Below, one piece after another: positions 30,801-60,100 of a stretch of DNA of 64,000 bases. The position numbers were made by a program, and so were the translations under genes. The DNA is from Antedon bifida (taxonomy: Eukaryota > Echinodermata > Crinoidea > Comatulida > Antedonidae): positions 11,873,395 to 11,937,394 of the forward strand of contig OY727100.1 in NCBI GenBank assembly GCA_963402885.1. The letters are read 5' to 3'. Under the pieces are notes generated by a model. The model did no database searches and had not been told where the DNA came from. It saw nothing but the letters and a program-made list of their open reading frames with translations. Position 1 is the first letter of the stretch. The number at the start of each line of letters is the position of its first letter.

Positions 30801-33134
30801 GCGGTGGTACTCCATCGGATACCTGTACACGCCAGATCTCTCCAAATTATGACAAATGACTACTCTTATTAATATTATTACTAAATACTAAAAAATGGAA
30901 TATCCATAATGTCGATTTCAACAAAAGAGTAGCTATAAATAGCGAATTTGTATTGTCAACTTTAAACAACTGTATCGTTGTCATGATCAACGTTGTATCT
31001 TCGTTTGTATTCACGCACCATATCGGTACATTTTGAGCTGAACTTCCTAGTCATTTTTTTTTCTGATTTTATTGGTTACGGAAGTAAACACACTTTTGAT
31101 TAGTAGGTTTATAATAGGCTTGAATTGCATTAGTTATAGTAATTTAAATATTTTACATTGTTAAAACTTTACAATACGATTTTGTGTATTGGGTATATAA
31201 AACACCGTTGGGTGTTGGATTTTGTTTATAAAAGGGTAAAACATTTATGTTGTCATAATTCCTGACGTATTTATATACGTTTTGTTTCCAACCTATACCA
31301 ACTCGTCACGGTTCGTCATTTCCCCCAATGTAGGCCCTAATATAGGTAGCCCTATCTATTTTCCACCTAATGTTTAATATAGGATTTTGTAATCTAATTA
31401 TACATTTTGTTGTATAACAGGTACACTTCTTGTTGTTGCTGGTGATATCTTCTCTAACGCTGACTCGCTAATCTTCTCGTGTATGGCATTACCGTTGAAT
31501 GAGCAAGTAGATTCATTTATCTGGTTCCACGCTGATGAAACTGGTGAAGTCAAACAAGGTCACGGAAATGCATTGGCTTCATCTACAGATAATGCGGCTA
31601 GAGGGCGGTATAGCTGCGAACGTGATGGCAGTACTAGTTTTCTGAAAATAAGCCGACCGACTGACGAGGATGCCGGAAACTATCAATGCAAAGTTATCCG
31701 TAAATACGATAATATACCGTTTCAAGGTGTCATTGTCTTGGAAAAAGACGTAAGACAACATCTTTCAAATTCGTAAACAATTTTAACATTTTGTCTTACG
31801 TAATTGTATAAAGCTACGTTCACACCAGGGAGAGGTATACCTCTCACTGTCCACAATAAGCCCATGGGCCGTAGTACGTCGTAGTGTGGTCGTTTCACTA
31901 TTACCCATGCATTTTTTACATTTTTATCCGACCACCACCGGGCAGGATTGAAGACTTTAGTCAAAGTACGGTATACCTATTATTATACTGTAATAGTGTT
32001 TGGTGCCCTCTATGCAACGAATCATAAAACACCGTCTGTAAATTTTCAATATGTTTATATATTCATAAGATTATATAACATTTCTTTCAACAGGGACATA
32101 CTCTTGAATGGAAAATAAACCAGTTTCAACTCGAAGACTCTTCTCCAACGAAAGATAATCAGAAGGTAATTAGGATGGATTCTTTTATAGAAGACGAAAC
32201 AGCTGAGAGCTCACAAGAGAAAGTTACAACCAACGGTTGTGATATTTCCGTTGCTGTTATTTCTAATAATGATGATGACAATCTAGAAACTCAGTTTAGC
32301 AATGTTAATTCCAGCGATATTGATTTAAACGACAAAATTCTAAATATAAAAACAATCAACGACGTATTAGACTCTAAGAAAGACATTGGTAACAGTAACG
32401 TCAGCAAAGATTTAGAGGCAGATGGAGATATTTGCGAACAAACGAAAGAAGGTGGGCCTACAACCGGAGAGAATGGACATTCAAATAATGTGGAATTACA
32501 CGAGAAAACTGATATAGATGATGCTACGAATAATGCAGAAGATTCTAAGACGGATACAATTGGTAATTGTGACGTCAAACGTGATGTACAGACAAACGAA
32601 AATGAGTATGAACAAAAGAAAGAAACTAACATCGCTGATGAGAATGACAGTTTTGATATTGATTCGCATAAGAAAACTATTGATGATACGAAAAATGCAG
32701 AAGATAACGATAAAATTGGTAATTGTGACGTCAGCAGACATGTACAGGTAGACGCAGATAAGTGTGAACACAAGGAAGAAAGTAACACCGCTGAAGAGAA
32801 TGGACGTTCTGGTATTAACTCAGAAGAGAAAATGGTAAATATAAAAAGAACTGATATTGATAAAACAGAAGGTAAGAAGGATGTAATGAGAAGTATATCT
32901 AACAACTGTGACGTCAGCAAAGATGAACATGCTAACGGAGGTAAACTTGAACAAAGTGATACCGAAGTGAACAGATCGTTTGTTAATGACCATAGTGTGG
33001 TTCTAGAGACAAACGGCCCGCAGAACAAGACGACAGAAGCTGCAGAAGAACACAGTACACTTAATGGCGACCAAGACGACAATGAAGAATATCAAATTAA
33101 AGATATAGAAGAAGTTGATATTTCTATAGTATAA
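19275..33134 (+). CDS. Ig-superfamily membrane protein: 4 Ig, stalk, TM, 2 Ig-like, acidic repeat tail
   Basis: Fifteen exons keep one frame for about 1114 residues: 19275-19338 (signal peptide), 20887-21165, 23387-23677, 24337-24618, 24883-25200 (one Ig each), 25675-25755, 26268-26342, 26461-26541 (Thr/Asn-rich stalk), 27380-27478 (TM), 28142-28330, 28819-28855, 29062-29090, 29305-29454 (one Ig-like domain split over four exons), 31421-31749 (a further V-like Ig) and 32094-33134 (acidic tail and stop). The Ig hallmarks are visible (for example DEGSYMC, DSGTYKC, DSGTYQC, DSGEYTC, DAGNYQC). The TM segment LYLIIGVAAAIIGLLLFIVL continues as IYICCF into exon 28142 and ends at KSIR. I recognise no orthologue. 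Ig domains after the TM are odd, and the 3' part could be a separate gene or splice form. Poly(A) signals cluster at 33180-33194. Confidence 0.72.
21545..21760 (-). mobile_element. tRNA-derived SINE, copy 2 (5' truncated)
   Basis: The body matches the element at 3842-4142 (ctgggcgacctcttc, gaccctctggg on the reverse, ggacctacggtttatagtc). The tRNA-like head is degraded: only a remnant of the B box region near 21735 and gattaagat near 21758 remain. It lies in the 2.2 kb intron 2 of the Ig-superfamily gene. Confidence 0.7.
23058..23262 (-). mobile_element. Short TIR element with tcgg/ccga microsatellite, copy 1
   Basis: The element carries tagtcgcgtg at one side and gagcacgcgact at the other, with a (tcggtctg)n-like core at about 23094-23125. 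Compared with copies at 27962-28098 and 37451-37558 it is inverted and carries extra internal sequence. It lies in an intron of the Ig-superfamily gene. Confidence 0.6.
26219..26608 (+). repeat. Tandem duplication of a stalk exon with its introns (~195 bp x 2)
   Basis: Two neighbouring copies (about 26219-26409 and 26410-26608) are nearly identical, including the acceptor region, the exon and the downstream intron (ctatcgatacaattattt). The exons encode ESTITANTRPTFNDNDHT- and EPTTAANTRPTFNDNDPT-type peptides. The second exon retains six extra bases (STSG rather than SG), matching the end of the exon at 25675. Both are phase 1 at each end, so each copy simply lengthens the stalk. Confidence 0.92.
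27825..27860. repeat. (TAA)n microsatellite
   Basis: About twelve uninterrupted taa trinucleotides lie in the intron after the transmembrane exon. Confidence 0.95.
27962..28098 (+). mobile_element. Short TIR element with ccga microsatellite, copy 2
   Basis: It begins aaggccatatagatggctgc, has cagtcgcgtgctc near the left end, an array of accgaccgaccaaccg words, then gacatagtgagctgtagag and a degraded right terminus. It is collinear with 37451-37558. It ends about 45 bp before the exon at 28142. Confidence 0.65.
29970..30815 (-). CDS. BK-channel beta-subunit-like protein, nested gene, two exons
   Basis: Exons are 30815-30540 and 30239-29970 on the minus strand. The donor (gag|gtaaga) and acceptor (tattccag) are both phase 0, giving about 181 residues; vertebrate KCNMB1 has about 191. 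The layout matches the family: a short N-terminus, TM1 (CIPITIFLFVVVIFFVYL), a ~110-residue extracellular loop with several Cys (SECTVV, KSCKGEEKC, CSFSGC), the family-like FPCFYHSKNEQ, then TM2 (AIMIPIIYFVIEICLY) and a basic tail. Family members tune the calcium and voltage response of Slo1 potassium channels at the plasma membrane. The first ATG leaves only five residues before TM1, and the frame is open upstream, so an upstream exon is possible. An AATAAA lies on the minus strand at 29915-29910. The gene lies wholly within the intron between 29454 and 31421 of the opposite-strand Ig gene. Confidence 0.75.
32094..33134 (+). other. Acidic repeat tail of the Ig-superfamily protein
   Basis: This single 1041-base exon encodes about 346 residues rich in Asp, Glu, Asn, Lys and Ser, with no hydrophobic segment. 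A unit of about 50-60 residues recurs, marked by (I)GNCDVS or a variant near 32388, 32563, 32718 and 32900. Each is followed by CEQKKE-like, ENGxS and KTxIDDxxNAED segments. The composition suggests a disordered tail. A long antisense frame over it follows from the repeat and codon bias. Confidence 0.8.
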
Positions 33135-38000: not shown

Positions 38001-41000
38001 CAGGTACCTACATTTAATTTTTTTTTTACAGAATATAGAATCTGGCGCTAAAATTAACCATGGTCCAGCCGCATCAAGAAAGGTAGCCGCAGTGAGTGCC
38101 TTCAGAACGGCTGGTGTTACCTTCAACAGCAAACTAGCAGAAAAGTTAAAAGGCAACAACAGTAAGAACTAACTGTTTTGCCAGTCTTTTAACATAGAAA
38201 TAAATACTTTTCAATTTCCCGCAACATGGATACGAACATGCAACCTCCAATTTACTTCGTTTGTTTTATCATTACGATGGGCCTAGAAAACAGATACTAT
38301 CAGTCAGATAAACGTTATTAGGCAAAGAGCTTGTGGTTGTCTTTCTTCACAGCACATTTAGTACGTAAACATTGAATTAATCCTTATTTCAAATTGTCTA
38401 ATTTTCAGAACAACTAACCGACAACGAAGAAGAGGATTTCGATTTTCCGCCTATGCCTGATAGTAAGGCCATAGTTGGTAAGCTTACTTCATTATACAGA
38501 GAATTGTCATTTCATCTTTATTGTATGTAGTTTTTTCATAACAACTCTTTCAAATCATATTTCAGCTGAGAATTCCGCCATAGAAGCTCGGGCACATTCA
38601 TTTTATCCTGTTCAGTCATACAACAAGTTAAACTTCAGCGTAAATGCAGGACCAGGAGGAGGCGCAGCTCTGCTTTTAATCACCAGGTTTAGAAATGAAT
38701 ATACATCGGCCCATATTCAACTAGTACGTTGTGGTTCGAGTGGGAACAACTTCGAAACGGTGTCATTGGTCAAAACAGGAGCGCACACTGTTTACAACTA
38801 TGACGTCATATATACCAATAGTGCTGGTTTCCTCTGTCCAATGGCAATATATGGTGCTTCTAATACAAGTCTGTTGTCAAATCTTCCACAATATGGAAAT
38901 TGCGAATGCGGAGTTCTCTTACAGGGAAGCAAGGAAGGTGTATTTAAAACGAAAATTGAAGTTAGTGAAGTACTGGACTTTTTTTCGTTGCTAGCTCTAT
39001 GTAGTGGACCACCAATTGAAGGAAAAACACCATCAAATGCTTATTTAATTCAATCGGAGCCATTTTCATCTGCTGCGTTTCTACCAGACAAAAATGACCT
39101 TTGGAAGTTTACAAAAGACGATGATGGTTTTCTAAAAATCACAGGTCCACAAAGTAGTTCGGTACTTCTGTTCTTCAATTCATCAATAGATTTAAAGAGT
39201 AAAGTGGAGGTGACAGGAGAAAAGGCATTAGTAAACCACACGCAAAGCTTCGTCGGTTCTGAAGAGACATCTCTTCTGAGTGAATTGAAGAAATTGCCAA
39301 ATGGATGCATGTTCGTTCTTTGTTCTCATGGAGATGGAGAGGAAGACGATAAAACTACATCTGCACTTTATCTTGTCGGTATAAATGAAAGTAACATAGA
39401 TTGTACATTTATTCAGGGGATGAGTGGATCATTTACATCCGGGGATGCTTGGAAGATTTATAACAAAGATGATAGTCTCATTGTTGTTGGGCCAGCCGGC
39501 CCCTGTCGATATACCATAATATCAAACATTGCCTCATCTATTAAGATAGACGAAAGCCGATTGGCAACATGTCTGGTGACTGGTGAAGCTCAACCAATCA
39601 GAACTGGTTTTATAGTTGATGGAGATAAAATAATGGGTTGGATTACTAAAGCTTGTAAAATTAAGCTGTTGCTGAATGGGAAAGTTCTTGAAATTATACC
39701 AATGAAAAAGCTTCTAAAACAACCAGACGGACGTTTTGGATTTTGTCGAGTGTTATCAGAAGAAGATAAGAAACCAGGATTGAAGTTTATACAAGCTTTT
39801 GCATTTATGAAAGATATAAGTAAGTTAATATAGTATATGTAATACATATATTTGGAACATATATTTCTGAAACTTTAACAAAGTGAATATCATTGATTAA
39901 TTTTACTCTTTCCTGACATTTTTTATGGTATTTTGTACTATTTTTTAAATGTCATATTTTATTCTATGTACAGTAATACTAAAGGTCTTCTTCATACATT
40001 GTTTTTTTATTAGATGGTGTTGACAAATTGATGCAGTTCGAAGGATCACCGCATACCTTGACTATACAACCAAAGGGTGCACATGTGGCGATAAATCTTG
40101 GTGGACCAGCTTATGAATCACTCTCAGGAATCGTATTTGCTGACACACAAACACTTTTTAAGATGCATGACGAACACGGTAAGACAACCGGAATATTCCA
40201 CACAGTTGCATCAGCATTTTCATCTTTATTTGTCCTTTCTATTAATTTGACCAACCACAAGCAACAGTTCAGATAGTCCTTCGCTTGTTATTGGTAAAAT
40301 TGCCTGCGTATGTACGTCTTTGCGTTGCACCCTAATGCAAATCAACCGTTATTTAACTGTATCGTTATAAATTAAAATGTATACCTTGTGTATACAATAT
40401 AAATACTAAAGATATGTTGTAACTTTAAAAATTGCAATTTTGCTAGTAAATTATAAACTTTCTTGTGTAGGCTTACAAGGTGTCAGAAAGTTCGTTGACA
40501 TTGTACAAGAAGACGGCCTGACTGCCATCATTGGAAACACTCACGATGGATTCATTGGAGGAACAAGCAATAGCACACATCCAGAGTATCTTGATGAAAT
40601 GAAGTTTGAGGTGAGTAGACCATTGACAACCTTTTCACATGAAATCAAATTAATACATTTTGAATTAAACAATTTCAATTTTCCAAAGCTTTTTTTTAAT
40701 TTAGAAGAATTATCGCTCCACATTGGCATATGCTGTTTAGCATTGAATCTTTCTTACCAAGAGCACGGTCTTATGAACTGTGCTGAAACTGGACTAAAGA
40801 CAATTTGTTACTGTTTTAGAACACTGTAAAAATTACTAAAACACGTTCTACCTTTTATATTGTCATAGTTTGACTTACCAAATGGTCCATATAACGTGAG
40901 GTTGTATGGCGTCAGCAAGAACATAGCATTCATTGATGATCTGCTGATTCAGGATGAAAACGTTGCTGATAAGGTAATATTATCAACATTATTAGCTCTA

Positions 41001-44000
41001 CGTAATTATACTTTCCAACATTACATTACAAATTTATTTTTCTCTGCTATAGGTTACTGAAGCGACCGAAAAGATACAGGAAAAGGTACCTGGTCTGTCT
41101 TTGAAGTTTACCGATATTGAAACTAAAGTCGAAAACAACAAGTTAAAGCTATTTTTTGGAACAGGTAAATTTGAAAGTTTGATACTATTTACAGAGTACT
41201 TGTATGTTGATGGCCCAAGAGTGTATTTCAACTTCTTTCATTTTTTGCATTAAAGTTAGCAATGGTCCTGGTGCTAGGCCATCAGCACTGGTTGTTACAG
41301 ATAAAACATACGTTGAACCAAAACTTACAGAAATGGAACTAGCAGAAGAAGCTAAAAGTAAAGTAGAGGTAAATATAGGCACTTACTGTATCTATGGCTG
41401 ATATGAATAGACTGAATATTATTCAGAACACTGAAAAGACCCTAAAAGACCCTAACAGGGTTTCTAAATGTTCTTGTTCATTTGTTTCAGTTAGCAAATA
41501 ATCTCGTCCCTCTTAATCGGGCAATGTCTAAGAAAGAGATCAAAATAGCCGGATGGTCCTCAAATCTGTTAGAGAATGCATCGGGTGAGGTAAGTGGATT
41601 CAATGGTGATAACGTACACTACTGTAGACTTCTTTCAAAAGGCACAACTTTAACACATGCTTCTTTTTCTTTCCTTGTCAGACAGCTGATATGACTGGCT
41701 GGAATTATGCTGGTGACTGGGTCATTCATAGTGGAGGAGACAATACTGAAACAAGTAAGTAGGTCTAACGATAATATTATTATTTTGTTATCAAAACTCA
41801 AAGCTTAAAAACTATATCTTGATTTCTCTATTATGTTTACAGAGTTTGTTGCTTCCCACATGACTTGCGAAAAAAACCAAGAAATTAATCTCCTCTCTCA
41901 TTTTTCGGCTGAACATTTAGACTCTTGTCCAGAGATTCAGGTAAGTTAAAAATATTAGTATTACATTAAATAACATACATAATAATAAGAAATAGAAATA
42001 TAGAAATTTGGATCCACTGTAAATTTTATGATTCGTAAATGATTAGAATAATAACAGAAATAGAATGTTCTCATGTTCACTTATGTATTTTAAAATATCG
42101 AAATTACGTATTCACTGTTTTTCATTCAGGCATCAGAATCGTTCCGTGCCGGAACATGTGGTGGAGGCTTCTATTCATTAACCGTTACCCTAATGAACGC
42201 GGATGGTGATACAATTGCGAAAAAAACAACAGATGAACAGGGAAGTATAGAGCATTTAGAATGGATTCGTGAGTGTTTTACATTTAAGGATTATGGAAAA
42301 GGTCTTCGCCTCATTTCATTCCAAACTACAGGTTAGTCTATTTGCCAAATGTTTTGTTCATTTCACTCTATGTATTTATGAAATACAGTAGAAATAATGT
42401 GAAATAAGATACACATCACAAATACTGTAGCGCAATGTACTGTTTGTGTCATTAAAATTCTATTTAAACTTAAAGGTAGAGACGATAAAGGTTGGGCGGG
42501 GCATTTCGGCGTCCTGGTATCTACCGCCTGCTTGCGTGTCAAAAGTGAAACTACTGCTGCTGCTGGTGACGTGTACAAAGATGTCATAGAAGAAGAGAAT
42601 GACAAAAGTATTGACCAAATCGTCAGAGGGTTACTAGAGGAGAATAATGAAACTCTCACTGAGCTTCAACAAGATGAAGGTATTTTAAAGATTTTTAAAA
42701 GATTGTTTACTCACTTATTGACATTTCTATCGGGTAAAACCCAGCTTACATGTTGCGGGATGAACTTCACAAAACTCACCTAAAAATGTCGAAAAACCTT
42801 TTAAGCAGTTATTCCAAGGTCTAGTGTTGTAGAGTTCTTTCACGTCTTTGGTTTTACGTTTTTCTTTGTATTTGAAACTAAAAACTAACTACTAACTATT
42901 TTATCTAGGTGACCCCACACTGTTTTGTATCAGATTAAAGTACCATTATTGAATATCAGAACTTCTAACAAATGCATAAATTACGTTACTCACGCGTTTT
43001 CCTGTTTTTCCTTTCTCATACAGTGTTTTCAATGTTATTTTGTGATATATTCTTAGCTTCTTCTGTATTAACTTTTAATATTATTATTACAACATAGTCG
43101 TCCACATTTGTTCGTAGATTAATTGGCGCTAGTATATTGATATCAACAAACACTGTTTTACTAACAAAGAAATATTTGTTTCATGATTATCTAGAGGAAG
43201 AATCTGTTGTGGATTTCAATAAACCTCTTCTGAATAGAGCCAATGACTCGCTTCCCGTATCAAAGCCTGTCGCACGAAGAACGAAGAAAAAACGTCGCGA
43301 AGTCCGAGTGTTTGTGTCAAGCACGTTTAGAGATTTCCAGGAAGAACGCGAAGTTCTCATTAAGAAGGCTTTCCGAGAATTGAACCGTATGTGTACAGAG
43401 CGAGGAATCTGTTTCACGTACGTAGATCTTAGATGGGGAATCACGCAAGAACAGTCAAAAGATGGCCAAACCATTTCGATCTGCTTACGTGAGGTAAATT
43501 ATGAGCTAATCTGTATTTAATGTATTCATACAAAGTATATTTTTATGTGGACTCCTGGTTTAATCATACTGATAATGTACCCTAACTCCGTCGGAAATTT
43601 ATATTCACCTAGTATTTTCCATTTATATATATATATATATATTTCTTATTTTTTAGGACACCACTACTTGTAAAAGATTTTTTTGCTTTGTGGTTGTTCC
43701 TGATTCATTTTTCCTCAGTTTTACAGTGTTACAAATTTACTTGTCGTGCTTGAAATGAAATGAAATACATATCAATATCAATATCTACTACTTTCAAATA
43801 GTTTTGAGAATATAAGAATATATGGATGGATAAGATATTATATTATATTTTTCAGATTGACAAGTGCCGTCCATATTTTATCTGTTTACTTGGTGAGCGG
43901 TATGGATGGTGTCAGAGAGAAACCGTACCCGATACACTTCTTGACAAAACATACGATGTCGCCATAGATAATTACAGTCGCTTCGATTGGATTGATAAGT

Positions 44001-47000
44001 TTAGATTTAACACCAGTGTTACGAGAGTAAGTTCACTATTGTAATCAATAATCTAGCAGTAGCTGCTTTAATAGTAATAGTGTTCATAATAACTATGGTA
44101 GAACTCGTTTAAAAAACAATGAAGATTTATACTTCTGAATGTTTTCTTAGCTGGAAGCATTATATGGTGCTCTTAGATGTAAGGAGGCTGCAATGAACCG
44201 ATCTTTCTTCTACATAAGAGAACAACAGTTAGACGAGGAGGATATGACAATAATGAAGGAAATTGTAAGTAAGACCAGAAGGAGACAGTTTTATTGGTTA
44301 TAACACAAAGCAAAATCTTTCGATTTACAAAATGAATTTTAATCGTTACCGAAATTGTATATTTTGTTTAATAAAATAGCAAGAAGAAATGGAAGCAAAA
44401 GATAAGGCAGCTAAAGAAAAAATAGAAACAGAAAAACAAGAAAAGAGTGGCCAAAGAGAAGAGACAAAGTCAGCTGATGAACAACAAACGGAAGAAAAGA
44501 AGAAGCCAGAAGTTAAGAAAGCAATACCCGATAGCAAGAAAGGTGCCCTTGAATCTTTTTGGCATTACAATCAGCAACAGGAATTTAGAAAGGTAGTAGA
44601 AGATTCTGGTATGAACGTAAGAAGATATAGAGGGGCGGATGAAGCACACGCCAAGATTCTTGAGGTAAGAGCGATTATGATACAACTATTGCACACAGAC
44701 ATCTAGTACATAACATAGATAATCAATCACTCTTGGGTCAGGTAAAGTCTATAAAATTCATGTTAAATAATAAGTACACTTTGTGTTTTTTTTCTAAGGA
44801 TCTCACAAGATGTGTTGACGAAGATTTTCCACCTGGAACAGAACTTACAGGCCTCCAACGAGAAAAAGAGGCACACGTAGCATTTGCTGAAGTTCGCTGC
44901 CGGATTTATATCGGCAGAGAAGACTACTTCACGGCAATTGACGATCACGTTGCTAAAGATACGGATGTTCCATTTGTTGTACTAGGAAGGTCTGGTTCCG
45001 GCAAGTCGGCATTGATTGCCAACTGGTGCACAAGATACGAGGAAAAGCACCCAAATGATTTTGTCTTTATGCATTTCATTGGTAGCTCAGCGGAGAGTGC
45101 TTCGCATCTGAACCTTTTGAGAAGGTAAATAAAGCAAAGCTTGTCTGCGTTTTTATCATAATTCTCGGTAAAGTCTAACTATTATTATTTATGTAACATG
45201 CCATGCCATTTTTCTGGTTGTATTAGATCTAATAGCAAATAGAAAATTGCAAACAAACATTCTTTCAAGATATACAGTATTTCTTACTGAGCTTACTACC
45301 TATACATATACTGAGGTTTGATTTAACTAGCTTATCGTATAATGTGTCATAACAGATTGTATGAAGAAATGAAGCAGTTCTTTAACTTTCCACAAGCCGT
45401 TCCTTCGTCTGACCGTAACCTTGTTCTAGATCTTCCATCATGGCTCAAACAAGCGGGAAATATCGGCAATGTTATGATTGTACTTGATGCGTTGAACCAG
45501 TTAGATACCGGAGCCGGAGCTACAGGTAAGTTCTTCATGTACTTGGATGAAGTGGTTAAAGTAAATTAGATGTATCATCAAATTCACCGAGGAGGAATTG
45601 AAACCATTAACCATACCCCGTTGACTTAAAATGTTTATTTTTTTCAAGGTGATGAACAGGAACTAAAATGGCTTCCAAAAACACTTCCAAGTGGTGTTAA
45701 GATGGTACTATCAACACTTCCCGGAACGGTAGGTATTTCGAAAACCGTTTAAATAAAGTAAAAATTTACATTGCCATGTCAATTAACGTACGATTAGCCA
45801 ACATTTACTTGTTCGATGTGAAAGATATAATACTGCAATTAACTAACCTACACTGTTTTTATTGTAGGCCTATGATGCGGTGGTGGCAAACGAATGGCCA
45901 ACATTTGAGATTTTCCCATTACAATCGAGCGAGAAGAAGCAGATAATAACAGAGTATATGACTTTATACGCAAAGACACTCAGTGAGGAACAGATGAATA
46001 TGATACTCAATGCAAACCAGACCAGCAACCCATTGTACTTAAAGTCACTCATGGATGAGGTAAACTACACTTCAAGAAATGTTTTTCAACAAGCAAATAG
46101 CAATAATAAATGTCTTTGAAATGTAGGCTAATGTAACATAACATTGTCTGTCCACTCCTTAGATTCGCATGTACGGAGAGTTCTTTCAATTGACGAGTGC
46201 AATTAAATCCTACCTGAGTGCTGATAGTCCAGGAGAGCTCTTTGTTAAAATTCTAGAGCGTCTGGAAAATGATTTTGAGACTGGGTCGTTTGAAAGGTAA
46301 GGGAATTGCATGAATTGACAGAATTCTCAAATCAAACATCAAGTTTATTAAAACACATAATAATATTCATTGTGATAATTTTTGTTGGTGGCTTTTACAG
46401 ACCTGGACTTGTACGAGACACTACAACAGCAATATGGTGTTCCAACAAGGGAATGACAGAGGCTGAGTTAACAGAATATTTACAAGTAAGCTTTCTCAGA
46501 CATTCTAACTTTTTATCAAAATACCAATAACATCTTTATTCTAATTAACTAGACCTGTCATCCATACAATTGCACGCATAACATTAAGATAGTTAAGACG
46601 GAAAGGTAGTTTTAATTAATCTTATTTCTAATGTATTATTTAAGGTAACATCAAGAGTATGGTCACCATTTTATCTGTCACTCGAAGAGAACGTAATTAA
46701 TCGAAATGGAGTTCTTAACTTCTTCCACGACCATCTGAGACAAGCTGTTGAAAGGAAGTACCTGAACACACCCGAACTTAAGAGACAATGCTACATGGAC
46801 TTGGCGGATTTCTTTAATAGGAAGGACATCGATGATCGCTATGTAAGTCACGTCAATCCAAACGGCCTTCTACCCTAGTTGATGTTTTTTTTAATGCAAG
46901 TGTTAATATAGGCGAAACTAGTTTTCTTGTAGCACTGGCCATATACTATCAACTCAATGTAACAATCATATACCACCAACACTTAATGTGTAATAAAAAC

Positions 47001-49084
47001 TGTCACTTCCATTTTAGACAGAAGAAGTTCCGTTCTTATTCTCACAAGCTGGTGATCTGAGGCGTCTACGTGCCACTATTCTAAACATTGTAGTCTTTCA
47101 ACGAATGATGGCAACGGAAGAGGGCAAATTTGAACTCATCAAAGCTTGGCAACTGGTAAGAATAAAAGTTTATCTAATGACCGGAACTGTAATTGGTCAA
47201 TATCAATATTTGAACCATGTTTAATTGAAATTGTATAAAGAGGATTTTGAACAGATGTCTGCAATAATTTATATTTCTCATCTTTAGCTCGGAGGCTACG
47301 AACAAGTTGAAGAAGCGTATGTGGGAACTCTTGCGAAGGCTGAATCATGGGAAAGTACAAAAGACAAAGCCAGCCTAATTAGGTCTATGGCAGGATTCTT
47401 TATGCAGTTGGGTCTTCAAAAGGGTGCAAGGTAAAAGCAATTTGATGACAATTATAATTACTGAATTTACAAAACAAGGTTATAAATGACATTAATATTA
47501 ATAATTCCTTTAATATGATAAATTGTTTGTACTTGATTAGATCATTGTATGAGCGGCTACTGGAGGCTTTGGAAAACAAATACAAGGAAGAGTATTCGAC
47601 AATTGTATACCATCATAGACACTACACGTACAGACGACAATGTGTACATCTAGAGGTGCTAGAGGTAAGATAATTATGAATAATTCTGAAGACACTGGCA
47701 TAAGAAAAGCTTCCTGGTCGCTATACTGATTGGATTAGTTTCGTATGTCATCACCTATTCATAGTTATGATTCATTCAATTACAGGTTATAATACAGCTA
47801 GGCTTGGTTTGCCGAAGCCTCGGGGAACTCGATGACGCTAAGAAGTACTTGTATGACGTCATCAGTCGCATGAACAAGATTCGCACACCAGCGCAGAAAC
47901 TTCAGTTAGTGAAAGCTCTTATTGGATTGGGGTAAATATTCTATATAATTATATATAACTATTACTGTACTATAGTATTGCTATAATTAACGACTATCAA
48001 TATAAACATCAGAATCAATGTCATTCTGTAGCATTTTTAGTACCGTAGGTCTTGGCCTATATCGGTTTTCATTTTATTCTATATACTTACTTATATAAGT
48101 ACTTGTATAACTGTAGGTCTGTACTTCGACTTCAAGAGAAAGCGGAGCAAGCCAAGGGATATTTAAAACGAGCTCAGGAGATAGCAACAGATATTTTAGG
48201 AAAGAACCACCACTATGTTGCCGCAATAGTAGGACAGGTAAAATATTATATTCACCAATACGATGAATACATTACTATACAAAAACAACAAGCAACATAT
48301 ATTCAATGAGATAGAAATAACAATAGTACCAGCACAACAATGTTTGTTGAAACTTTAAGGAGGACAAATATTCTGAAAATTGGATGTCACAGGATGAAAT
48401 GTGTGAAGCAATCAATCTAATGACATTTACTATTTAATCCACAGATTGGAGAGCTTTCGTACGGACAAGGTCGTCTTGAAGACGGGTTGATCCATCATCT
48501 TTGGGATATGCAGCTAACCCAAAATGAAGTAGGATTGAGTCACCCACGTGTAGGAGCCATCTTAAACAACATCGCTCTTGTTTACGATGACAAGAATGAC
48601 AAACTAGCTGGTGATTTATTCAAAGGCGTCTTGAAGATATTGGTGCAGGCATTTGGACAGAACCATGTTGATGTCGCAATTGTCAGGTATGTATGTCAAT
48701 GGCATAATGCCAAATGTCTGTCCTGTGATTCTCTGGCCAAACTTGTGAGGCCGGCATGACCGGCTATTAATTGTCATAGTTGTTGTGGTGCTGTCATAAA
48801 ACCACCTCCAATAGTATAACAGTTTGGTTATTGTCAACTGTCCTTTGACTAATTAATTGTTTAGACTGTGTATACTGCTAGGCCTTCTTTTAAGATTCAA
48901 ATGTTTACATTGTATTTTCAGATTCAACTTAGGAGCGTTCCTATTTGCAAACAATCTGTATGAAAGAGCTCGCTATCAATTCGACGAAGCATTGCGAATA
49001 TTTCAACTCTTCCTTGGTGATAATCACCCGGAAACAAAATCCACTACAGAGGCATTGGAGAAGCTAAAGAATTTTTCAAAGTGA
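35024..49084 (+). CDS. Gene A: FBA-DUF4062-NACHT-TPR STAND NTPase, complete, 32 exons, ~1978 aa
   Basis: Exons: 35024-35065, 38032-38161, 38409-38477, 38566-39819, 40014-40178, 40471-40610, 40869-40973, 41053-41164, 41256-41368, 41491-41589, 41682-41754, 41843-41940, 42130-42331, 42476-42679, 43195-43493, 43856-44026, 44151-44264, 44380-44664, 44799-45124, 45356-45525, 45649-45728, 45868-46059, 46163-46296, 46401-46485, 46645-46842, 47018-47155, 47288-47430, 47541-47664, 47786-47931, 48117-48237, 48445-48686, 48922-49084. Domains: unrecognised N-terminus (~1-740), FBA-like (~745-890), DUF4062 (~972-1100), Lys/Glu coiled coil (~1131-1190), NACHT (~1260-1480), helical and TPR-like repeats (~1555-1978). 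No signal peptide or TM is visible, so the protein is probably cytosolic. The sugar-binding-type domain joined to a nucleotide-switch NTPase suggests a glycan or damage sensor (inference). DUF4062-NACHT-TPR resembles NPHP3/TEP1-type proteins, but I know of none with FBA. Gene B is a tandem paralogue. Confidence 0.88.
37451..37558 (+). mobile_element. Short TIR element with ccga microsatellite, copy 3
   Basis: This copy has the clearest termini: agtcgcgtgc near the left and gcacgcgact near the right are exact inverted repeats. The core is accgaccaaccgaccgacat, and aaggccatatacatggctgc flanks it as in copy 2. It lies in the 3 kb first intron of gene A. Confidence 0.7.
38566..41589 (+). other. 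Gene A N-terminal region, unrecognised modules
   Basis: A large exon (38566-39819) and six shorter ones encode about 660 residues of alternating hydrophobic and polar segments, typical of beta-rich domains. Internal echoes such as WKFTKDDDGFLKITGP and WKIYNKDDSLIVVGP suggest repeated modules. Segments such as SELKKLPNGCMFVLCSHGDG and GVRKFVDIVQEDGLTAIIG weakly resemble ILEI/FAM3-type domains. This is a guess. The region is strongly conserved in gene B, so it is under constraint. Confidence 0.6.
41682..42545 (+). other. Gene A F-box-associated (FBA) type domain
   Basis: Four exons spell the FBA landmarks in order: NYAGDWVIHSGGDNTET, KFVASHMTCEKNQEINLL, CGGGFYSLTVTLMNADGDTI, FTFKDYGKGLRLISFQ and WAGHFGVLVSTACLRV. 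In FBXO2, FBXO6 and FBXO27 this fold binds the chitobiose core of N-glycans. No F-box precedes it. At the site equivalent to the Tyr-Trp pair that contacts sugar in FBXO2, gene A reads Lys-Gly-Trp, so the Tyr is lost. Confidence 0.82.
43195..44264 (+). other. Gene A DUF4062 (TIR-like) domain
   Basis: Three exons (43195-43493, 43856-44026, 44151-44264) encode the diagnostic VRVFVSSTFRDFQEEREV, YVDLRWGITQEQS, SICLREIDKCRPYFICLLGERYGW (split by the intron) and SFFYIREQQL. DUF4062 is a Rossmann-like relative of TIR/SEFIR domains found next to NACHT and TPR in NPHP3- and TEP1-type proteins. A basic cluster, RRTKKKRR, lies immediately before it. Confidence 0.87.
44799..46059 (+). other. Gene A NACHT NTPase domain
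   Basis: The Walker A motif is GRSGSGKS (about residues 1288-1295) and the Walker B-like motif is MIVLDALNQLD (about 1375-1385). Both appear intact. Downstream KWLPKTLPSGVKMVLSTLPG and the FEIFPL segment fit the sensor-1 and arginine-finger region of NACHT/STAND proteins. The splice sites at 45124/45356 and 45525/45649 fall inside the domain in the same phase as in gene B. Confidence 0.88.
46645..49084 (+). other. Gene A C-terminal winged-helix-like and TPR-like region
   Basis: The part after NACHT includes NGVLNFFHDHLRQAVE, typical of the helical region after STAND NTPases. Paired amphipathic helices follow, with TPR signatures such as AKGYLKRAQEIATDILGKNH and NNLYERARYQFDEALRIF, and linkers of the type GxxHPxT(K/A). 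TPR arrays usually bind partners and hold STAND NTPases inactive. The stop is at 49082-49084, and AATAAA motifs lie at 49720 and 49805. Confidence 0.8.
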
Positions 49085-51189
49085 AATCCTCGTAGACTGT
49101 CAAGCACGAACAATGTCATTGCTTAGATAACTTCCGAATCTTTTATAAATGTAATAACTGTTGAAACAATCATAATTACACTTTCATGCGACAGAAACCA
49201 TACCAAATGCATATTACATGGATTTATACAATTTTAAATTTGATATGACAAAGATAACTTTAACGCAACCAATATATATTTAAACAAAAATATCGTTGAA
49301 AAATAATGCTTATATAAAATAACTGGATACCAACCAACAACATCGTACTATACAATTGAAGAGGTAGGCCTATAGGCAATAACAAGCAATTGATTACTCG
49401 TTTTAATGTTTAATTGTGTATGTGTAACAGATTATACATAAAGGAAGATAATAATATATATTGGAAATATACTAGTTGTATTGTAGAACAAATATTTAAC
49501 CAGTAATATTATCAATTATATTTGAATTAAATTTAGACAAACATAGTAGGCGATGTTTTTTAAATTGAATATACTTTGAATAATGGTAGAACAGCTAACA
49601 ATGAATATAGGTATGAAGTAAACATAACAAAAAGATAATACATCCTGAAATGGCAAGCAAACCATTCTTATCAATTATCATAGTTGCCTGATTGATAAGA
49701 ACAGCATTACATAATTAGAAATAAACTATTCAGGTTTGATTAATTGGACTTAATATCCATATATTTTACTTCAATATTCATGAAAATGTTATAGTTTGAG
49801 ATTTAATAAAGTCGCTTGAAATAAACTACTACAGTTCCGCTAACTTTAGATCTTCTACTAGTAACACATCATGCCTGCTATGGAAATTAACAAGAACAAT
49901 AACAACAATGTATAGTAAAATAAAATCTGCAGCACTTTACATTAATGAGTAACATTACTCGAAATCAAAAGTCTTCAGCCTTTTAAACTGGCTGACTAAC
50001 GTCAATATCAAACTTTGTAAAGAGAAAATAGAATTACAATTTGAATAAAAGTACTATAATATATCTAAATCGGTTAGTTATTTGTATGAAATGTCAATTA
50101 GTTCAGTTACCCCGTAGAATCGTAATATAAAAGAATGAAGAAATCAATGGAAATACTGCATTAATTACGGGTGAATATTGACAATACAGTCACGGTTCAA
50201 TGATTCCTAATACATTATACACAATAACGTGAGCTAAGTGTCAACACAAGAAGCTTCACAGTGCTTAGCAACATACGGTAATATGAAGGCAATGGAGCAG
50301 TATAGCTAGTAATATATTCTGTCTAAAAGGTAAGAATACACATATAATATGCATAATAGTTTGTCATTTTAGGTCTCACCTTAAACATTATGTATGATAG
50401 TGTCTAACAAGGATTCTCCCAAACGCATGTCCTGTTAATTTTAATGATCTCATATAAGCCTATATATAAATAATACATCGCTGTTATTTATACGTATATT
50501 AACCACGTGTAGGCCTACGTCAATATTTTTCTCTATGTTTTACCTATATATTTAGAATAGATAACATTTTCTAAAATGTTATCTTACTGAAAATTTGACA
50601 GTTTCAACTAGTTAACGACCTTAAATTTCGTTTGATTAATTTTGCATTCACTGAAATAAGTGTCATTCATTGAATTGAACAATAAAGTGTTAACAGAGAA
50701 GAGAGTAAAATAGAGTACAGTACAGGCCCTACTGTATATACAGCATACAGTAGAACTCCTTAAATAGTTACAGTATAACGATAATTAACATAAATTTAAT
50801 AAGCCTAATTCTAGCTTTCTAGCAACACTATTATCTAAAAATTAGCCTATCTATGAATGAATCTCTATGGATACAGATAGTCACACGCGACAATGACACT
50901 GTATTTACAGAATGAGTGACGAAAGAGTAGTATTAAATAACAGATTGACATAATAATCAATGAGACTGAACAATTATTGTTTGAGGTGAATTTAATGAAT
51001 ATGTCTTGTGTTACATACATACTTAAGGCCTACACATAAGACCTCTTATTCAAATGGTAATGCAAATCGTTGTCTTATCATGTAGGCCTAGAACTTATTA
51101 TGGAATAATAGGAATGCAGATTAAATCTAATCTCAATTAAACCAGTGGAGTAATAATTTCGTTTATGGTTTTTCAGACAATACCGAAAC
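49085..51189. other. Spacer between gene A and gene B
   Basis: The spacer is AT-rich, with poly(A) signals for gene A at 49720-49725 and 49805-49810. A splice-acceptor-like tttttcag about 15 bp before the gene B ATG suggests a 5' UTR exon for gene B somewhere in this stretch. No other coding or repeat structure was recognised. Confidence 0.5.
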
Positions 51190-54100
51190 ATGGGTACTAT
51201 TTTAACAAAGAAGAAGGAGGGACCAGTCGCAACGAGGAAGGTTGCTGCAGTGACTGCTTTCAGAACGGCTGGCGCTGCACTAAACAGCAAACGCATAGCA
51301 GACAAATTAAAACGTGACAATGGTAAAGTGTACTGTCGTGTTTCAATTCATGTCTATTGATAACAGTAAAGAACATAACATGGAACCATAACAACATGTA
51401 CAGATTTGTTGAATCTGCAGATAAATTTATAATTAGTAGGCCTACATCCTTTTATGATAATGTACGGGATTTTTTACCAATTTTTTTTTCATATATCACA
51501 GTACAGTAGTTCGTACGGTTATTTTTCATTTTCTTTGACTTTTTAGAACAACCAATCAGTTACGAAGAAGAGGATTTGAATTTTCCGCCTATGCCTGATC
51601 GTAAACCTATTATTGGTAAGTAATCTTGTTTCTAACTTTTCTATTGGACAGGGGGTTACCCCGGTGAACTGGTTCACAAAATAGCCCCTGTATCAGGGGG
51701 ATTACCACCTATCTGATAGGACAGTGATTAATTCACTATTGGTAATCCTTGGCCACATTGCCTAAAAGACATAAAATAAAAAATAAAAATAATTGGTTCA
51801 ATTAAAACACTGATAAATGGAATACATAAATGTGCCACGAGAACAATTAATCAACCAGTAATATGACTATATATAGTGGTATTTGTTTGACTGCTCTAAC
51901 TCTCATGAGTGAGTAACAAAGTTATTAAAGAAGAAAACAATAATTATTACTATTCGTATAGCTGTATATTAAACATAACTATCAACATTTTTTTTCAGGT
52001 AAAAATGCTGCCATAGAAGGACATGCACACTCATCTCATCCCGTTCAGTCTTATAACAAGTTAAATTTCAGTGTAAATGCAGGGCCAGGAGGAGGCGCAG
52101 CTCTTCTTCAAATTGCGCGAGTTACAGGAAACGGTACATCGGCGCAAGTTCAGCTAGTACGGTGTGGTTCAAGTGGCAACCACTTCGAAACGAAGTCATT
52201 GTTCAAGACCGGAGAACACTCAGTCTATCACTATGATGTCATCTATACCAATAGTGCTGGTGCTCTATGTCCGATGGCAATATATGGAACGTCACATACA
52301 AATCTTTTATCAAATCTTCCCCAGTATGGAAATTGTGAATGCGGAGCTCTGTTACAAGGTAGCAAGAAAGGAGTCTTCAATACCGAAATTAAAGTCAGTG
52401 ATCTGCCGAACTTTTTTTCAATTCTAGCGCTTTGTAGTGGCCCACCAATTAAAGGGAAAACCTCATGCAATGCTTACCTAATACAGTCAGATCCATTTTC
52501 ATCTGTTGTGTTTCTACCTGACAAAAACGATATTTGGAAATTTACAAAAGACGAAAATGATTTCTTGAAAATTAATGGTCCGCAAAACAGTTCGATACTT
52601 TTGTTCTTTAATTCACCAGAAGATTTAAAGAGTAAAGTACACGTGACAGGACAGAAATCGTTAATAAATCACACACAGAGTTTTGTCGGTTCTGAAGAGA
52701 CATCTCTTCTGAGTGATTTGAAGAAATTACCAAATGGAAGTATGTTTGTTCTATGTTCACATGGTATTGGGGAAGATGATGACACCACATCTGCTCTGTA
52801 CATTGTCAGCATAAATAAAAGTAATATCGATTGTACATTTGTCCAGGGTATGAGTGGACATTTGTCATCTGGAAATGCATGGACAATCTACACTAAAAAT
52901 GATAAACTTGTAGCTGTTGGACCAACCGGCCCCTGTCGCTATACAGTCTTATCAAACATCGCCTCACCCTTTCAAGTAGACGAGAGCCAATTGGCAAATT
53001 GTTTGCTGACGGGTGAGGCACAACCAATACGAACTGGTTTAGTAATTCATGGAGATAAGGTAATGGGCTGGATTACAAAAGCTTGTAAAATTAAACTGTT
53101 GCTGAATGGGAAACTTCTTGAAATTATACCAATGAGAAAGCTTCTAAAACAACCAGACGGTCGTTTTGGATTTTGTCGAGTGTTATCAGAAGAAGATAAG
53201 AAACCAGGACTGAAGTTTATACAAGCTTTTGCATTTGTGAAAGATATAAGTAAGGATAAACAATCTTAATAATGTCATGTATTATTCTTAATCTAGCAAA
53301 ATATATTTTCTTTGAAGAGGCTCAAATGTGTGATTAAATAATTAGATAGATTTTTTTTTCTCCAGCTATTTCTAATAAAAAATATGTGGCCATTTATAAT
53401 TTTTAAGTATGACGTGGTTTTTGGAAGAAAATTGATTATATTTCTTTTGTAAACAAAATGTAGATGATTTTGAAAAACTGAAAGAATTCCAAGGATCACC
53501 GCATACCATGACCATACAACCAAAGGGTGTACATGTGGCGATAAATCTTGGTGGACCAGCTTATGAATCACTCTCAGGAATCGTATTTGCCGACACACAA
53601 ACACTGTTTAAGATGCACGAAAAACATGGTAAGTATATTACATTACATGATGGTTGATATATAATTTTTATTCCATATTGCTGTTGTTGTTTTATCCGCC
53701 TAGACACCAGATACAATGTATGCGATTTACAGAAGAATAGTGTGTTTATATATATATATATATACATTCACTTAATACTGCACTAATATTGTTAATTATT
53801 CGATCTTATCTAATAGGTCTACAAGGTGTTAGGAAGTTTGTTGATATTGTACCAGGACACAGACTGACTGCTGTCATTGGAAACACTCATGATGGATTCA
53901 TCGGAGGTACTAGTAATGGCACACATCCTTCATTTCTTGATGAAATGGAATTTGAGGTTAGTAGTGAATGAGGGATGCAGTAGACAATCGGAAAACTCCG
54001 GCGTATCCCCTCAAATATGTTTAAATGTTACATAAACTATTTTACATGTTGTTACCGAATAATTAGATTATGACTACAATCCCATATCAAACACACCCAT

Positions 54101-57100
54101 ACCACTTTTTCTTGTTTATCATTTGTTCATCGGGTCTACCAAAACCTATAGGCTAGTCAATCTAGCATTTTGAGTGAAACAAATTGCAAACAGAGATTTT
54201 TTTTTTTTAAATGGTTACATATGATAAGGTGATTATTTTTTTAGCATCACACCTCTGACACTCATCCCGAAGGTATGCAAATTAGCTTAAATATGCAAAT
54301 TAAGGTGAAATTACAGGGTTACCATATCTTCAAAACTACTAATCGTAGAGAGTTCGTTTTTGCACAGTCTGGTTCAGAATATATATATTTATATTTGCTC
54401 TAATAAGACATTTTACAAAAAAATGACCGGAAGTACCAGATTTTGACCCTTGACCCCATTTCTCAATATTTACATAAATATGTGATTAAAATGTCTGTAG
54501 AGACTTTTTTTTGGACTCAATGACTTGGATATTGTTTTTCAATACCCACCATAGAACTGTATTATAATTCCCAAAATCACACCTTCGTCACGCACCTCGA
54601 AAGTATGCAAATTAGTAGTACAAGTAATATTAAATATGCAAATTAGGGAGTGAAATTACAGCGTTGCCATATCTCGAAAACCGCTAATGCTAGAGTGTTG
54701 ATTTTTTCACTAAAATATTTAAAATATGTATATTTATATTTGCTCCAATGAAACATTTTACAAAAAATTGACCGGAAGTATGACATTTGACCCTCGACCC
54801 CATTTCTCAATATTGCATATATAATGAAACTAAAATGTCTGTAGAGACTTTGTTTTGCCCTCAAATGACTCAGATACAGGTTTATAATAGCCAACATAGA
54901 ACTGTTTAGTAAATCTCAAAATCACACCTGTATCACTCACCTCCAAAGTATGCAAATTATTAGTAAAAGTTAAATAAAATATGCAAATTAGGGGGTGAAA
55001 TTACAGGTTCCTATATATCGAAAACTACTACGGCTAGAGAGTTGATTTTTTCAATAACTTGTTCAAAATGTACATATTTATAATCGCTCTAATAAAACAT
55101 TTTACGAAAAAATGACCGGAAATACAACAATTGACCCTTGACCCTATTTATCAATGTTTGCATACATAATGCGACTAAAATGTCTGTAGATAATTTTTTT
55201 TTACTCAAATGACTCGGATACAGTTTTCCTATCGTCAGCATAGGACCGCTTTATAATTCCCAAAATCAAAATTTTGTCACACACCTTGAAAGTATGCAAA
55301 TTATTAGTACAAGTTACATGAAATATGCAAATTCGGGGTGAAATTACAGTCTTCCCATATCTCGAAAACCATTAATGCTAGAGAGTTGATTCAGAATGTA
55401 CATATTTATATTCTCTCTAATGCGTGGTTCCCACTGGCGACGCAACACAAGGACGTAACGCAACGCAAGTGAATTGACCAATCACAAGCGATGGCTTATT
55501 CGCTTTTGATGGCTAACTGTCTATAAAACTTCGCTTGTCATTGGTTAAAACGCTTGCGTTGCGTTTACGTCCTTGCGTTACGTTCTAGTGGGAACCAAGC
55601 TTTATGAAACATTTTACGCAAAAATTGTCGGAATTATGACATTTGACCCTCAAATCTATTTCTCAATATTTTCATATAATGCAACTAAAATGTCTGTACA
55701 GACTTTGTTTTGGCCTCAAATGACCCAGATACAGGTTTTCTACAGCCAGCATAGAACTGTTTAGTAATTCTCAAAATCACACCTCTGTTACTTCGCTTGA
55801 AAGTATGCAAATTAGTAGTACAAGAAAGTTGCCATATCTCTATCGGTCATTAGCGTTTTCGACATACATAAGGCAATTCACTGTAATTTGCGTATTTCAT
55901 ATAGCTTGTACTACTAATTTGCATACTTTCGGGGTGCTTGACTTATACTGGCTATATAAAACCTGTATCTGAGTCATTTGAGGCCAAAACAAAGTCTGTA
56001 CATACATTTTAGTTGCATTATATGCAAATATTGAGAAATAATAATAATAATATTAATATCCTGGTTTTATATAGCGCCTAATGTTGTGAAACCTCTTAGC
56101 GCTGTATATAAACTAATACGAAAAAAGGGAATTCCAACCATGCCAAAAAAACCCAAACCGAAGTAAAGAGATACGCCTTCGTCGCTAACCAGGGATCGGT
56201 CTAATTGAACCCCGGTCAGCACCAGTTGTGTCGAGGGTCAAATGTCATACTTCCGGTCAATTTTTTGTAAAATGTTTTATGGAGCAAATAGAAATATGTA
56301 CAAATATGTACGGCTGTGAAAAAATCAACTCTCTAGCATTAATCGTTTTTGAGATATGGGAAGACTGTAATTTATTTATTTATTTATTCACCCCCTTATT
56401 TGCATATTTCATGTAATTTGTACTACTAATAATAATAATATAATTTTGAGGTGCATGACGAAGGCGTGATTTTGGGAATTACAAAGCGGTCCTATGCTGA
56501 CTATAGGAAACATGTATCAGAGTTATTTGAGTCCAAAACAAAGTCTCTACAGACATTTTAGTCGCATTATGTATGCAAACATTGATAAATGGGGTCGAGG
56601 GTCAATTGTTGTATTTCCGGTCATTTTTTCGTAAAATGTTTTATTAGAGCGAATATAAATATGGACATTTTGAACAAGTTATTGAAAAAATCAACTCTCT
56701 AGCCTTAGTAGTTTTCGATATATAGGAACCTGTAATTTCACCCCCTAATTTGCATATTTTATGTAACTTGTACTAATAATTTGCATACTTTGGAGGTGAG
56801 TGATACAGGTGTGATTTTGAGATTTACTAAACAGTTCTATGTTGGCTATTATAAACCTATATCTGAGTCATTTGAGGGCAAAACAAAGTCTCTACAGACA
56901 TTTTAGTTTCATTATATATGCAATATTGAGAAATGGGGTCGAGGGTCAAATGTCATACTTCCGGTCAATTTTTTGTAAAATGTTTCATTGGAGCAAATAG
57001 AAATATGTACATTCTGAATACGGCTGTGAAAAAATCAACTCTCTAGCATTAGTGGTTTTCGAGATATAGGACAACTGTAATTTTTTTCCCTTATTTGCAT

Positions 57101-60100
57101 ATTTTATTTAAATTCTGCTACTAATTTGCATACTTTCGAGGTGTGTGACAAAGGTGTAATTTTGGGAATTACAAAGTAGTCCTATGCTGGCTATTAGGAA
57201 CCTATGTCTGGGTCATTTGAGGGCAAAATAAAGTCTCTACAGACATTTTAGTCACATTGTATATGCAAACATTGAGAAATGGGGTCGAAGGTCAAATGTT
57301 GTACTTCCGGTCATTTTATCGTAAAATGTTGCATTAGAGTAAATATAAATATATACATTTTGAATAAATCAGTGAAAAAATCAACTCTCTCGGACTAGTA
57401 GTTTTTGAGATATGGTTACCCTGTAATTTCACTCTAATTTGCATATTTAAGCTAATTTGCATACCTTCGGGATGAGTGACAGAGGTGTGATGCTCAAATT
57501 TTCATCTCCTCATCATATATGACCATTTAAAAAAAAAAAATCTCTGTTTGCAATTTGTTTCACTTTGAGCTGTTTTTTTTGCTAGATTGACTAGCCTACT
57601 AGGTCACATCCACTGACTGTTCTCCTGATGAAACAATGTTCTAAATGAATCGATCAAAGAACAAACTATATTTATTTACTAACTTTTTGGATAATGTTTT
57701 TAAGATGTTTTGGGTTTTTTCTCCATAGTTTGACGTGCCAAATGGAACATATAACGTGAGGTTGTATGGCGTCAGTAAAAACTTAACATTCATCGATGAG
57801 CTGATTATTCAAAAAGAAAACGTAGCAGCTCAGGTGCGTATAATGCCACAATGGTAGGCCTATACCGTATTCCGATTAAAACTGTACCAACTATTGAAAA
57901 TGCACTCAGTTGAGTAATATCAACTGAAAATGAAAAAAACAAATCTGCCTAACAAGTTCTTCATTGATTACATTTTGTACAGGTAACGGAAACAACGGAG
58001 AAATTACGTGAAAAGGTACCAGGACTGTCACTAAAGTTTACAGATATTGATACAAAAGTCGACAACAAAAAGTTGAAAATGTTGTTTGGAGCGGGTAAGG
58101 CAGATACAGTTTAGCAAAACAAAGAAAAGTACACATTTAATAAACATAGTAAAAAGAATCCTCAATGAATAATGAATATTCATTAATTCATGGTTTGAAT
58201 TGATATAATAAGTTAAAATGAACACTAGTTTAAAAGTTACAAAAGATTTTATTAATGTATTTTTAATTTTATCAAGTTAACAATGGACCTGGTGCAAGAT
58301 TGTCGGCTCTGGTTGTTACAGATAAAACGTATGTAGAACCGAAACCTTCAGAAGATGAGTTAGCTGAAGAGGTCAAGAGCAAACTTGAGGTATGGGTTTT
58401 TACACATTTAATGTTACTAAAAACTATAAGCAAATGGTATACTCACTTGACAAAACTCTACTTTCAACATGCATTACTGGCAAAATACCATGGCATTTAA
58501 TTTATAAATTAACCTTTTCCAGAGTGTCATTATATAAACTATGCCGCTATTAAATTAACAGATAAAGTCTTAACTTAATTTCTTTCCATTTTAATGGCCG
58601 ATGCTTATAACAAACTATTCCTTTTGATTATTCTCAGTTAGCAGATAATTTGGTGCCTCTAAATCGTACACTGTCAAAGAAAGAGATAAAAATCGCCGGG
58701 TGGTCATCAAATCTATTGGAAAATGCATCTGGTGAGGTAAGTTTGTACTCTAGTATTGGTTATAACAATGATCATGCACCGTTTCCTATGCTTTAATAAA
58801 CGTTCCTCTTCATTTTATCCTGGACAGGCAGCCGATATGTCTAGCTGGAATTATGCTGGCGACTGGGTCATTCATAGTGGAGGCGACAATACCGAAACTA
58901 GTAAGTACTAGTCTCGAAGTTTGGTCTTCAAGTATGCGAATAAAACTACCACAATCTAAAAGTTGATTATTCATCAACATGCAATAGACTACAGGATGTG
59001 GTTGAACCAAGACAAGTTAACTGTAGCCTACATTTAGCCAAAACAAATAAATATACAAGACTACAGTATAGGCCTATGCCTACTAAAAATAGAAACAAAA
59101 ATGCCCGAATATGCCCTTTCTTTTACTATTGGGTCAATCTCTTTTTAATTGTTGTACAGTTTTAAAAAGTTGTTAATAACATACATAATTTAACTATATC
59201 AATTCTTCGTGTTATCTTGTAGAGTTCGTTTCTTCGCATATGAACTGCGTAAAAAATCAAGAAATCAATCTTCTGTCTCACTTTTCGGCAGAACATTTGG
59301 ACTCATGTCCGGAAATTCAGGTATGTTAGGCCTAATTATGTTGATTAACATTTCTAATGTACACTCAACGTTGTCTTGTTTTTTTTTAAATTTCAGAAAT
59401 TTCACAGTAAGGCAGACATCAATGTCAATGTGAACATACAGTACAACTAAAATGCTCACATTATTACTACTACTGTCATTCCACTTTTCGTTCCATTTAT
59501 ATGTTTACTTTTTTATCAATTTGTTTACTTTTCGATAGGCCTCAGAATCGTTTCGTGCCGGAACATGTGGCGGAGGCTACTATTCGCTAACCATTACACT
59601 TATGAATGCTGATGGTGATACTATTGCGAGCAAAACAACAAATGAACAGGGAAGCATAACGCATTCAGAATGGATTCGTGAGAGTTTTACCTTCAAAGAT
59701 TATGGAAAGGGTCTTCGGCTTATCTCCTTTCAAACTACTGGTATGTTTTGCATTTTGATTCTACGTACGTTTGTTTTTGTTTTTCACCTCAGACCTCATC
59801 TACATTCTTTTCGTGGCTTTTTTTTAGTCATCCTTTCATATTATGTACATATGTTTGTTATTGTTTATCTGAAAACGGAAACATATGGCCATAACATATT
59901 CTCTCCATCTCTCATGGTCTCTTGCCATTTCTCTTTCCCATCACATTGGATCTGCCTCTCTTTTTCACCCGATTGCCATTCAGTTCAGTCCTACTGTTGT
60001 CGTCCGCTAGTGTTGTTGAGTACAATTCCATCTCATCAAAATCATTTACTGTCATAGAAACAAATTTGCCTTTATAATTGGTGCCGTTATCAACTGATGA

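Follow-up and report, generated by a model that had tools for sequence, protein, structure and literature searches.

Several proteins are already known in which a DUF4062 domain stands next to a NACHT ATPase domain, namely TEP1, NWD1, NWD2 and NPHP3 (PMC13174449). In the same preprint, DUF4062 is reported as a TIR-like domain that cleaves NAD (a NADase), both in the bacterial Swarozyc, where Glu97 is needed, and in human TEP1, where Glu1008 is needed; the bacterial KpSwz comprises DUF4062 and one auxiliary domain, change of R908 or R976 in TEP1 lowers the activity, and it is speculated that oligomerisation of NACHT activates the TIR-like domain. The FBA (F-box associated) domain is known from FBXO2, FBXO6, FBXO27, FBXO44 and NCCRP1. 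Here we describe two tandem genes, A and B, in a stretch of 64,000 nucleotides (the window) from the crinoid Antedon bifida (assembly GCA_963402885.1, contig OY727100.1, positions 11,873,395 to 11,937,394), which are predicted to join FBA to DUF4062 and NACHT in a single polypeptide, followed in gene A by TPR repeats, and which we regard as a putative STAND receptor with its own TIR-like effector.

Gene A was modelled on the plus strand at 38032-49084, with 31 exons joined at GT-AG borders into 1,961 codons and one terminal stop. The original prediction placed FBA, DUF4062, NACHT with an intact Walker A and TPR one after another in one continuous frame at 41682-46059. This order is confirmed on the plus strand, all four domains being matched significantly and above the curated cut-offs of Pfam. 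The frame is single and open once the exons are spliced, while in the genome it is interrupted by introns; the span proved to open with the second FBA exon and to close with a NACHT exon, the FBA match beginning one exon earlier (at about 41563). The observation is also larger than first noted, with two more modules ahead of FBA and a second copy of the gene. The features are as follows:

38032-38477, plus strand: exons x1 and x2 of the splice model of gene A, an N-terminal segment that is basic and then acidic (56% identity with copy B; no Pfam match)
38566-39819, plus strand: 418-residue module encoded by a single large exon of the splice model (78% identical to copy B)
40082-40907, plus strand: malectin-like module, weakly supported and limited to the first half of the domain, across three exons (Pfam, hhalign)
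41563-42540, plus strand: FBA domain (Pfam and PDB matches), in exons 41491-41589, 41682-41754, 41843-41940, 42130-42331 and 42476-42679
43305-44264, plus strand: DUF4062, TIR-like domain (Pfam PF13271, 4e-15; PDB chain of TEP1, 11gz_A, 2e-16; residue mapping)
44380-44664, plus strand: charged linker exon between DUF4062 and NACHT (length 285 in A, 312 in B)
44976-45960, plus strand: NACHT NTPase domain (Pfam PF05729, 4.9e-7, 30.2 bits against a cut-off of 26.7)
46819-49033, plus strand: C-terminal helical/TPR region (Pfam TPR_12, TPR_10 and NPHP3-type TPR)
49082-49084, plus strand: stop codon of gene A in the splice model
51177-63834, plus strand: gene B, a tandem paralog cut by the window edge, with 22 exons from x1 to exon 63701-63834 (found by a tblastn search of the window with the exons, then modelled)

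The exon borders of gene A were placed at GT and AG by visual inspection and with knowledge of the second copy, and those of gene B were set by homology with A; because borders were chosen in this way, the presence of GT and AG at the flanks of every modelled intron proves little alone. Independent signs for the gene model are the open frame, which has no internal stop in either gene, the second copy and selection. The exons of gene B are counterparts of the first 22 of gene A, in the same order, with the same phase in 22 of 22 and identical length in 19, and counterparts of A's last nine exons are not within the window, which ends soon after 63834. The two copies share 73-91% DNA identity in the exons and 46-74% in the introns (20 of 21 aligned), whose lengths are often unequal. 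Over 1,505 aligned codons the protein identity is 82%, with a nonsynonymous divergence (dN) of 0.10, a synonymous divergence (dS) of 0.81 and a dN/dS of 0.12. By segment, dN/dS is highest at the N-terminus (0.41), followed along the chain by the large exon (0.16), the malectin-like part (0.19), the linker after it (0.06), FBA (0.06), the linker between FBA and DUF4062 (0.11), DUF4062 (0.07), the charged exon (0.15) and NACHT (0.06). Each module is thus under purifying selection, which speaks for a functional gene in both copies, and the chain of domains, with four Pfam cut-offs exceeded, all comparable phases kept and this overall ratio, goes beyond chance.

The frame, the tandem copy and the signature of selection thus all support a single gene that holds both the FBA and the NACHT exons. 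The exon that carries DUF4062 has no in-frame Met ahead of the domain in either copy, and therefore a separate mRNA beginning there would lack a start codon; between FBA and DUF4062 there is no Met in A and one in B (residue 916, within the same exon as the end of FBA). Copy B begins with MGTILTKKK (51177-51322), which, as a guess, we take to fit the N-myristoylation consensus, and copy A has no Met at this place. A 3.8-kb intron of gene B holds a large foldback repeat (54173-57564), with an internal period of about 345 nt and arms of 683 nt (92% complementary) and 271 nt (87% complementary), which looks like a non-autonomous mobile element.

The DUF4062 domain is a likely effector, one that the original prediction had passed over. 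Among the closest known systems is TEP1, a human vault protein composed of DUF4062, NACHT and WD40, with which the crinoid protein shares the adjacency of DUF4062 and NACHT, the TIR-like match and the aligned catalytic Glu; in contrast to TEP1, the crinoid protein has TPR in place of WD40, FBA and further modules ahead, and no other TEP1 domain in its Pfam list. With the TEP1 chain numbered from R908, all four named TEP1 residues fall on the right letters. The candidate catalytic Glu is residue 1077 of A (encoded at 44154-44156), aligned with E1008 of TEP1, and it sits in SVTRLEALY in both copies, its counterpart being aligned in B as well. At the positions of the active-site residues R908, R954 and R976, copy A has Arg, Gln and Arg, and copy B has Lys, Gln and Arg.

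The NACHT domain carries an intact GRSGSGKS at 44985-45008 and, in translation of exon 45356-45525, VMIVLDALNQL, which we take to be Walker A and a Walker B-like motif, respectively. The NACHT region had no match to PDB sequences better than E 0.88, a PADLOC search of the DUF4062-NACHT part gave mad8 (2e-5) and mad3 (0.005), each aligned with the NACHT ATPase region, and NCBIfam gave two matches, both far below the cut-off. The NACHT STAND core is shared with the metazoan NLRs (NACHT-LRR proteins), from which the present protein differs in having TPR; among the 19 Pfam families listed for the spliced A protein (E up to 1) there is no LRR, WD40 or death-fold family, and no F-box family either. 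The best 19-residue Kyte-Doolittle mean is 1.47 in A and 1.08 in the available part of B; there is no strongly hydrophobic segment, and therefore the protein is probably cytosolic.

The identity and order of the domains are supported, as is the earlier idea of a STAND switch, and we give about even chances to the reading in which this switch fires a TIR-like NADase, in the form of two tandem paralogs. By analogy with TEP1, Swarozyc and STAND proteins, we infer the ligand, autoinhibition, oligomerisation, NAD cleavage and an immune role as follows. The protein would be a STAND signalling ATPase, large and probably cytosolic, whose NACHT would be held closed at rest by the C-terminal TPRs, the N-terminal modules or both. 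Binding of a ligand by FBA, the malectin-like part, the 418-residue module or the TPRs would let NACHT bind ATP and oligomerise, and the TIR-like domains clustered by this oligomerisation would cleave NAD+. A number of observations speak against such a mechanism. The start codon of gene A was not located (the matching exon of copy B has an ATG), R954 of TEP1 is replaced by Gln in both copies and R908 by Lys in B, and the TIR-like part lies in the middle of the chain and not at the N-terminus. The bacterial Swarozyc, an anti-phage NADase, likewise has DUF4062, and the match to KpSwz is not significant (E 0.08). Finally, the preprint reports no NAD cleavage by human NPHP3, NWD1 and NWD2, even though they also pair DUF4062 with NACHT (PMC13174449), and the TPR part here resembles that of NPHP3.

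One of the modules that may recognise the ligand is FBA, whose identity is firm. The Pfam family FBA (PF04300) is matched at 3e-18 (66.6 bits against a cut-off of 32.4), over positions 9-175 of its 175, and the same segment matches PDB chains of FBXO2 (8e-15 at best), FBXO44 (5e-9) and FBXO6 (2.5e-8). According to one paper (PMC4603797), Phe177, Tyr279 and Trp280 of FBXO2/Fbs1 are essential for N-glycan binding, and FBXO44, which has Tyr, Tyr and Trp followed by Ala, binds no sugar, a difference ascribed there to another loop conformation. In the PDB alignment with checked numbering, these three positions and the next one read His, Gly, Trp and Ala in copy A, and His, Tyr, Trp and Ala in copy B. 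Hence the pocket of the Fbs group (FBXO2, FBXO6 and FBXO27) is mostly changed: both copies retain Trp, B alone retains Tyr, and neither has Phe, which is His in each. The residue after Trp280, which is Lys281 of FBXO2 by the numbering check and presumably has a role there, is Ala in both copies, as in FBXO44; this is not decisive, because the paper blames the loop conformation of FBXO44. Compared with FBXO2, FBXO6, FBXO27, FBXO44 and NCCRP1, the crinoid protein shares FBA, but it is a 1,961-residue STAND protein in which no F-box was found.

It is well possible, if somewhat short of even odds, that FBA reads a protein or peptide, as it does in FBXO44, so that the receptor would detect a protein ligand or guard a host protein, which is compatible with NADase action. 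The precedent is the FBA of FBXO44, which binds an RGS2 peptide with a KD of about 2.1 uM (PMC12554172), and the Ala after the conserved Trp and the low dN/dS of FBA point in the same direction, whereas the His at position 177 is unlike both the Phe of FBXO2 and the Tyr of FBXO44.

We consider it rather unlikely that the protein is a scaffold of the NPHP3 kind that does not act as a NADase, with FBA and the N-terminal modules serving only to target it. NPHP3 in full has the order DUF4062, NACHT, TPR, and to our knowledge it is without FBA. The adjacency of DUF4062 and NACHT and a partial match of the TPR profile are common to both: in the C-terminal part, TPR_12 (1e-18) and TPR_10 (1e-10) are accompanied by TPR_NPHP3 with 64.3 bits (E 1.4e-17). 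That score is, however, below the cut-off of 100, as is that of the Pfam family NPHP3 (14.8 bits, or 18.6 with a shorter query, against 33), and the catalytic Glu and the Arg at position 976 are kept in both copies, even if NPHP3 itself is reported as inactive on NAD (PMC13174449).

Less likely still, in our view, is a cytosolic alarm in which FBA, perhaps with the malectin-like part, would bind N-glycans leaked from the endoplasmic reticulum, the lysosome or a pathogen and turn NACHT on, again compatibly with the NADase reading. FBA is a strong relative of that in FBXO2 and retains Trp280 in A and B alike, as well as Tyr279 in B, FBXO27/Fbs3 offers a precedent in its action on glycoproteins that damaged lysosomes expose (PMC6389600), and a second module resembles malectin. 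Against this, His replaces Phe177 in both copies and Gly replaces Tyr279 in A, and the Ala after Trp280 is that of the non-sugar-binding FBXO44 (not decisive alone), so that glycan sensing as originally proposed is not supported, one of the three essential FBXO2 pocket residues being kept in both copies; another sugar, or binding through other residues, may still apply. The match to malectin is itself partial and below the Pfam cut-off: for copy B, Pfam lists Malectin (PF11721) alone, at E 0.16 and 12.4 bits against a cut-off of 23, which is not significant, and for copy A it lists no family; PDB sequences gave E 0.33 or worse with unrelated proteins. In hhalign, the aligned copies A and B scored 32.1 (P 1.7e-4, probability 49.5%) with a profile of eight bacterial and archaeal malectin domains, over an aligned stretch (residues 24-112 of the segment) that spans about half the domain, whereas the controls reached at most 19.5 (100 column shuffles), 16.6 (reversed profile), 15.0 (FBA profile), and 12.6 and 13.0 (two other modules). 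We take this as a sign, in the sequence, of distant kinship with malectin, from which sugar binding is not inferred.

The 418-residue module had no significant match in Pfam, the whole exon giving none and its pieces only Imm26 (E 0.085, one piece of A), and among PDB sequences the best E values were 0.15 for the whole and 0.07 for the middle part, with unrelated proteins. An AlphaFold2 model of the large exon from two sequences was unusable (pLDDT 33), and an ILEI/FAM3-like reading of it, made from a motif seen by eye, was dropped as Pfam gave no support. Scans of genome-contig and viral-contig collections for the 418-residue module and for DUF4062 confirmed no relatives, and they say little, because each used two short peptide patterns and the collections contain no animal genomes as such. 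The boldest combination would make the receptor a damage sensor and executioner in one protein: the malectin-like and FBA parts, both lectin-like, would survey the cytosol together with the 418-residue module, a new one, for glycans or glycoproteins that are out of place, and would directly activate the TIR-like NADase of the same chain. This appears improbable. These likelihoods do not sum to one, because the ligand (glycan or protein) and the effector (NADase or not) are separate questions.

That two or three adjacent genes, or a pseudogene, were misread as a fusion is highly improbable: the missing start of gene A and the Met at residue 916 of copy B would fit it, but 22 of 22 comparable exons keep phase, dN/dS is 0.12 overall and at most 0.41 per segment, no stop lies within either frame, and A has no Met between FBA and DUF4062.

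Elsewhere in the window, positions 1-2500 form a satellite-like array spaced at about 185 nt, and the palindrome TAGGCCTA, which is common in echinoderm DNA, occurs 37 times (e.g. 7469-7487) against 0.49 expected from shuffles. Among the matches listed for papers containing its letters, none appears from the title to deal with such a palindrome. Among eight upstream open frames searched with Pfam, Ig matches lie above the cut-off at 20763-21173 and 23194-23682 and just below it at 9039-9368 and 31393-31776, and fn3 is above it at 16699-17052. Further features are:

2555-2893, minus strand: exon with a match (1.4e-10) to Pfam PDCD9, a family of mitochondrial ribosomal proteins
9039-31776, plus strand: probable cell-surface Ig gene or genes (Pfam on the eight open frames)
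32079-33134, plus strand: 351-residue stop-to-stop frame after the Ig exons, acidic and repetitive (by eye)

In the open-access papers searched, a combination of FBA with NACHT or DUF4062 was not found among the matches listed, apart from an oak transcriptome paper that mentions both F-box associated and NACHT; malectin and NACHT occur together in four papers, malectin with NACHT and TPR was not found in the searches made, nor was DDB_G0287407, and searches for echinoderm NACHT, TPR, DUF4062 or nephrocystin-3-like proteins did not show this architecture in the titles and abstract starts of the matches listed. A sea-cucumber NACHT receptor is on record (PMC13133943). The addition of FBA and two upstream modules to DUF4062, NACHT and TPR is therefore provisionally new, in a comparison with the papers searched, and the same architecture may already be present, unnamed, in public proteomes. 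The fusion itself looks real and unusual.

If the proposed reading is true, a fold known from ubiquitin-ligase adaptors would be tied to a STAND switch with an NAD-consuming effector of its own, and the crinoid genes would allow the recent claim of a TIR-like NADase in DUF4062 to be tested in an invertebrate. The catalytic Glu is kept in both copies and a pocket residue of FBA differs between them (Gly in A, Tyr in B), so that genes A and B would make a natural comparison of ligand choice.

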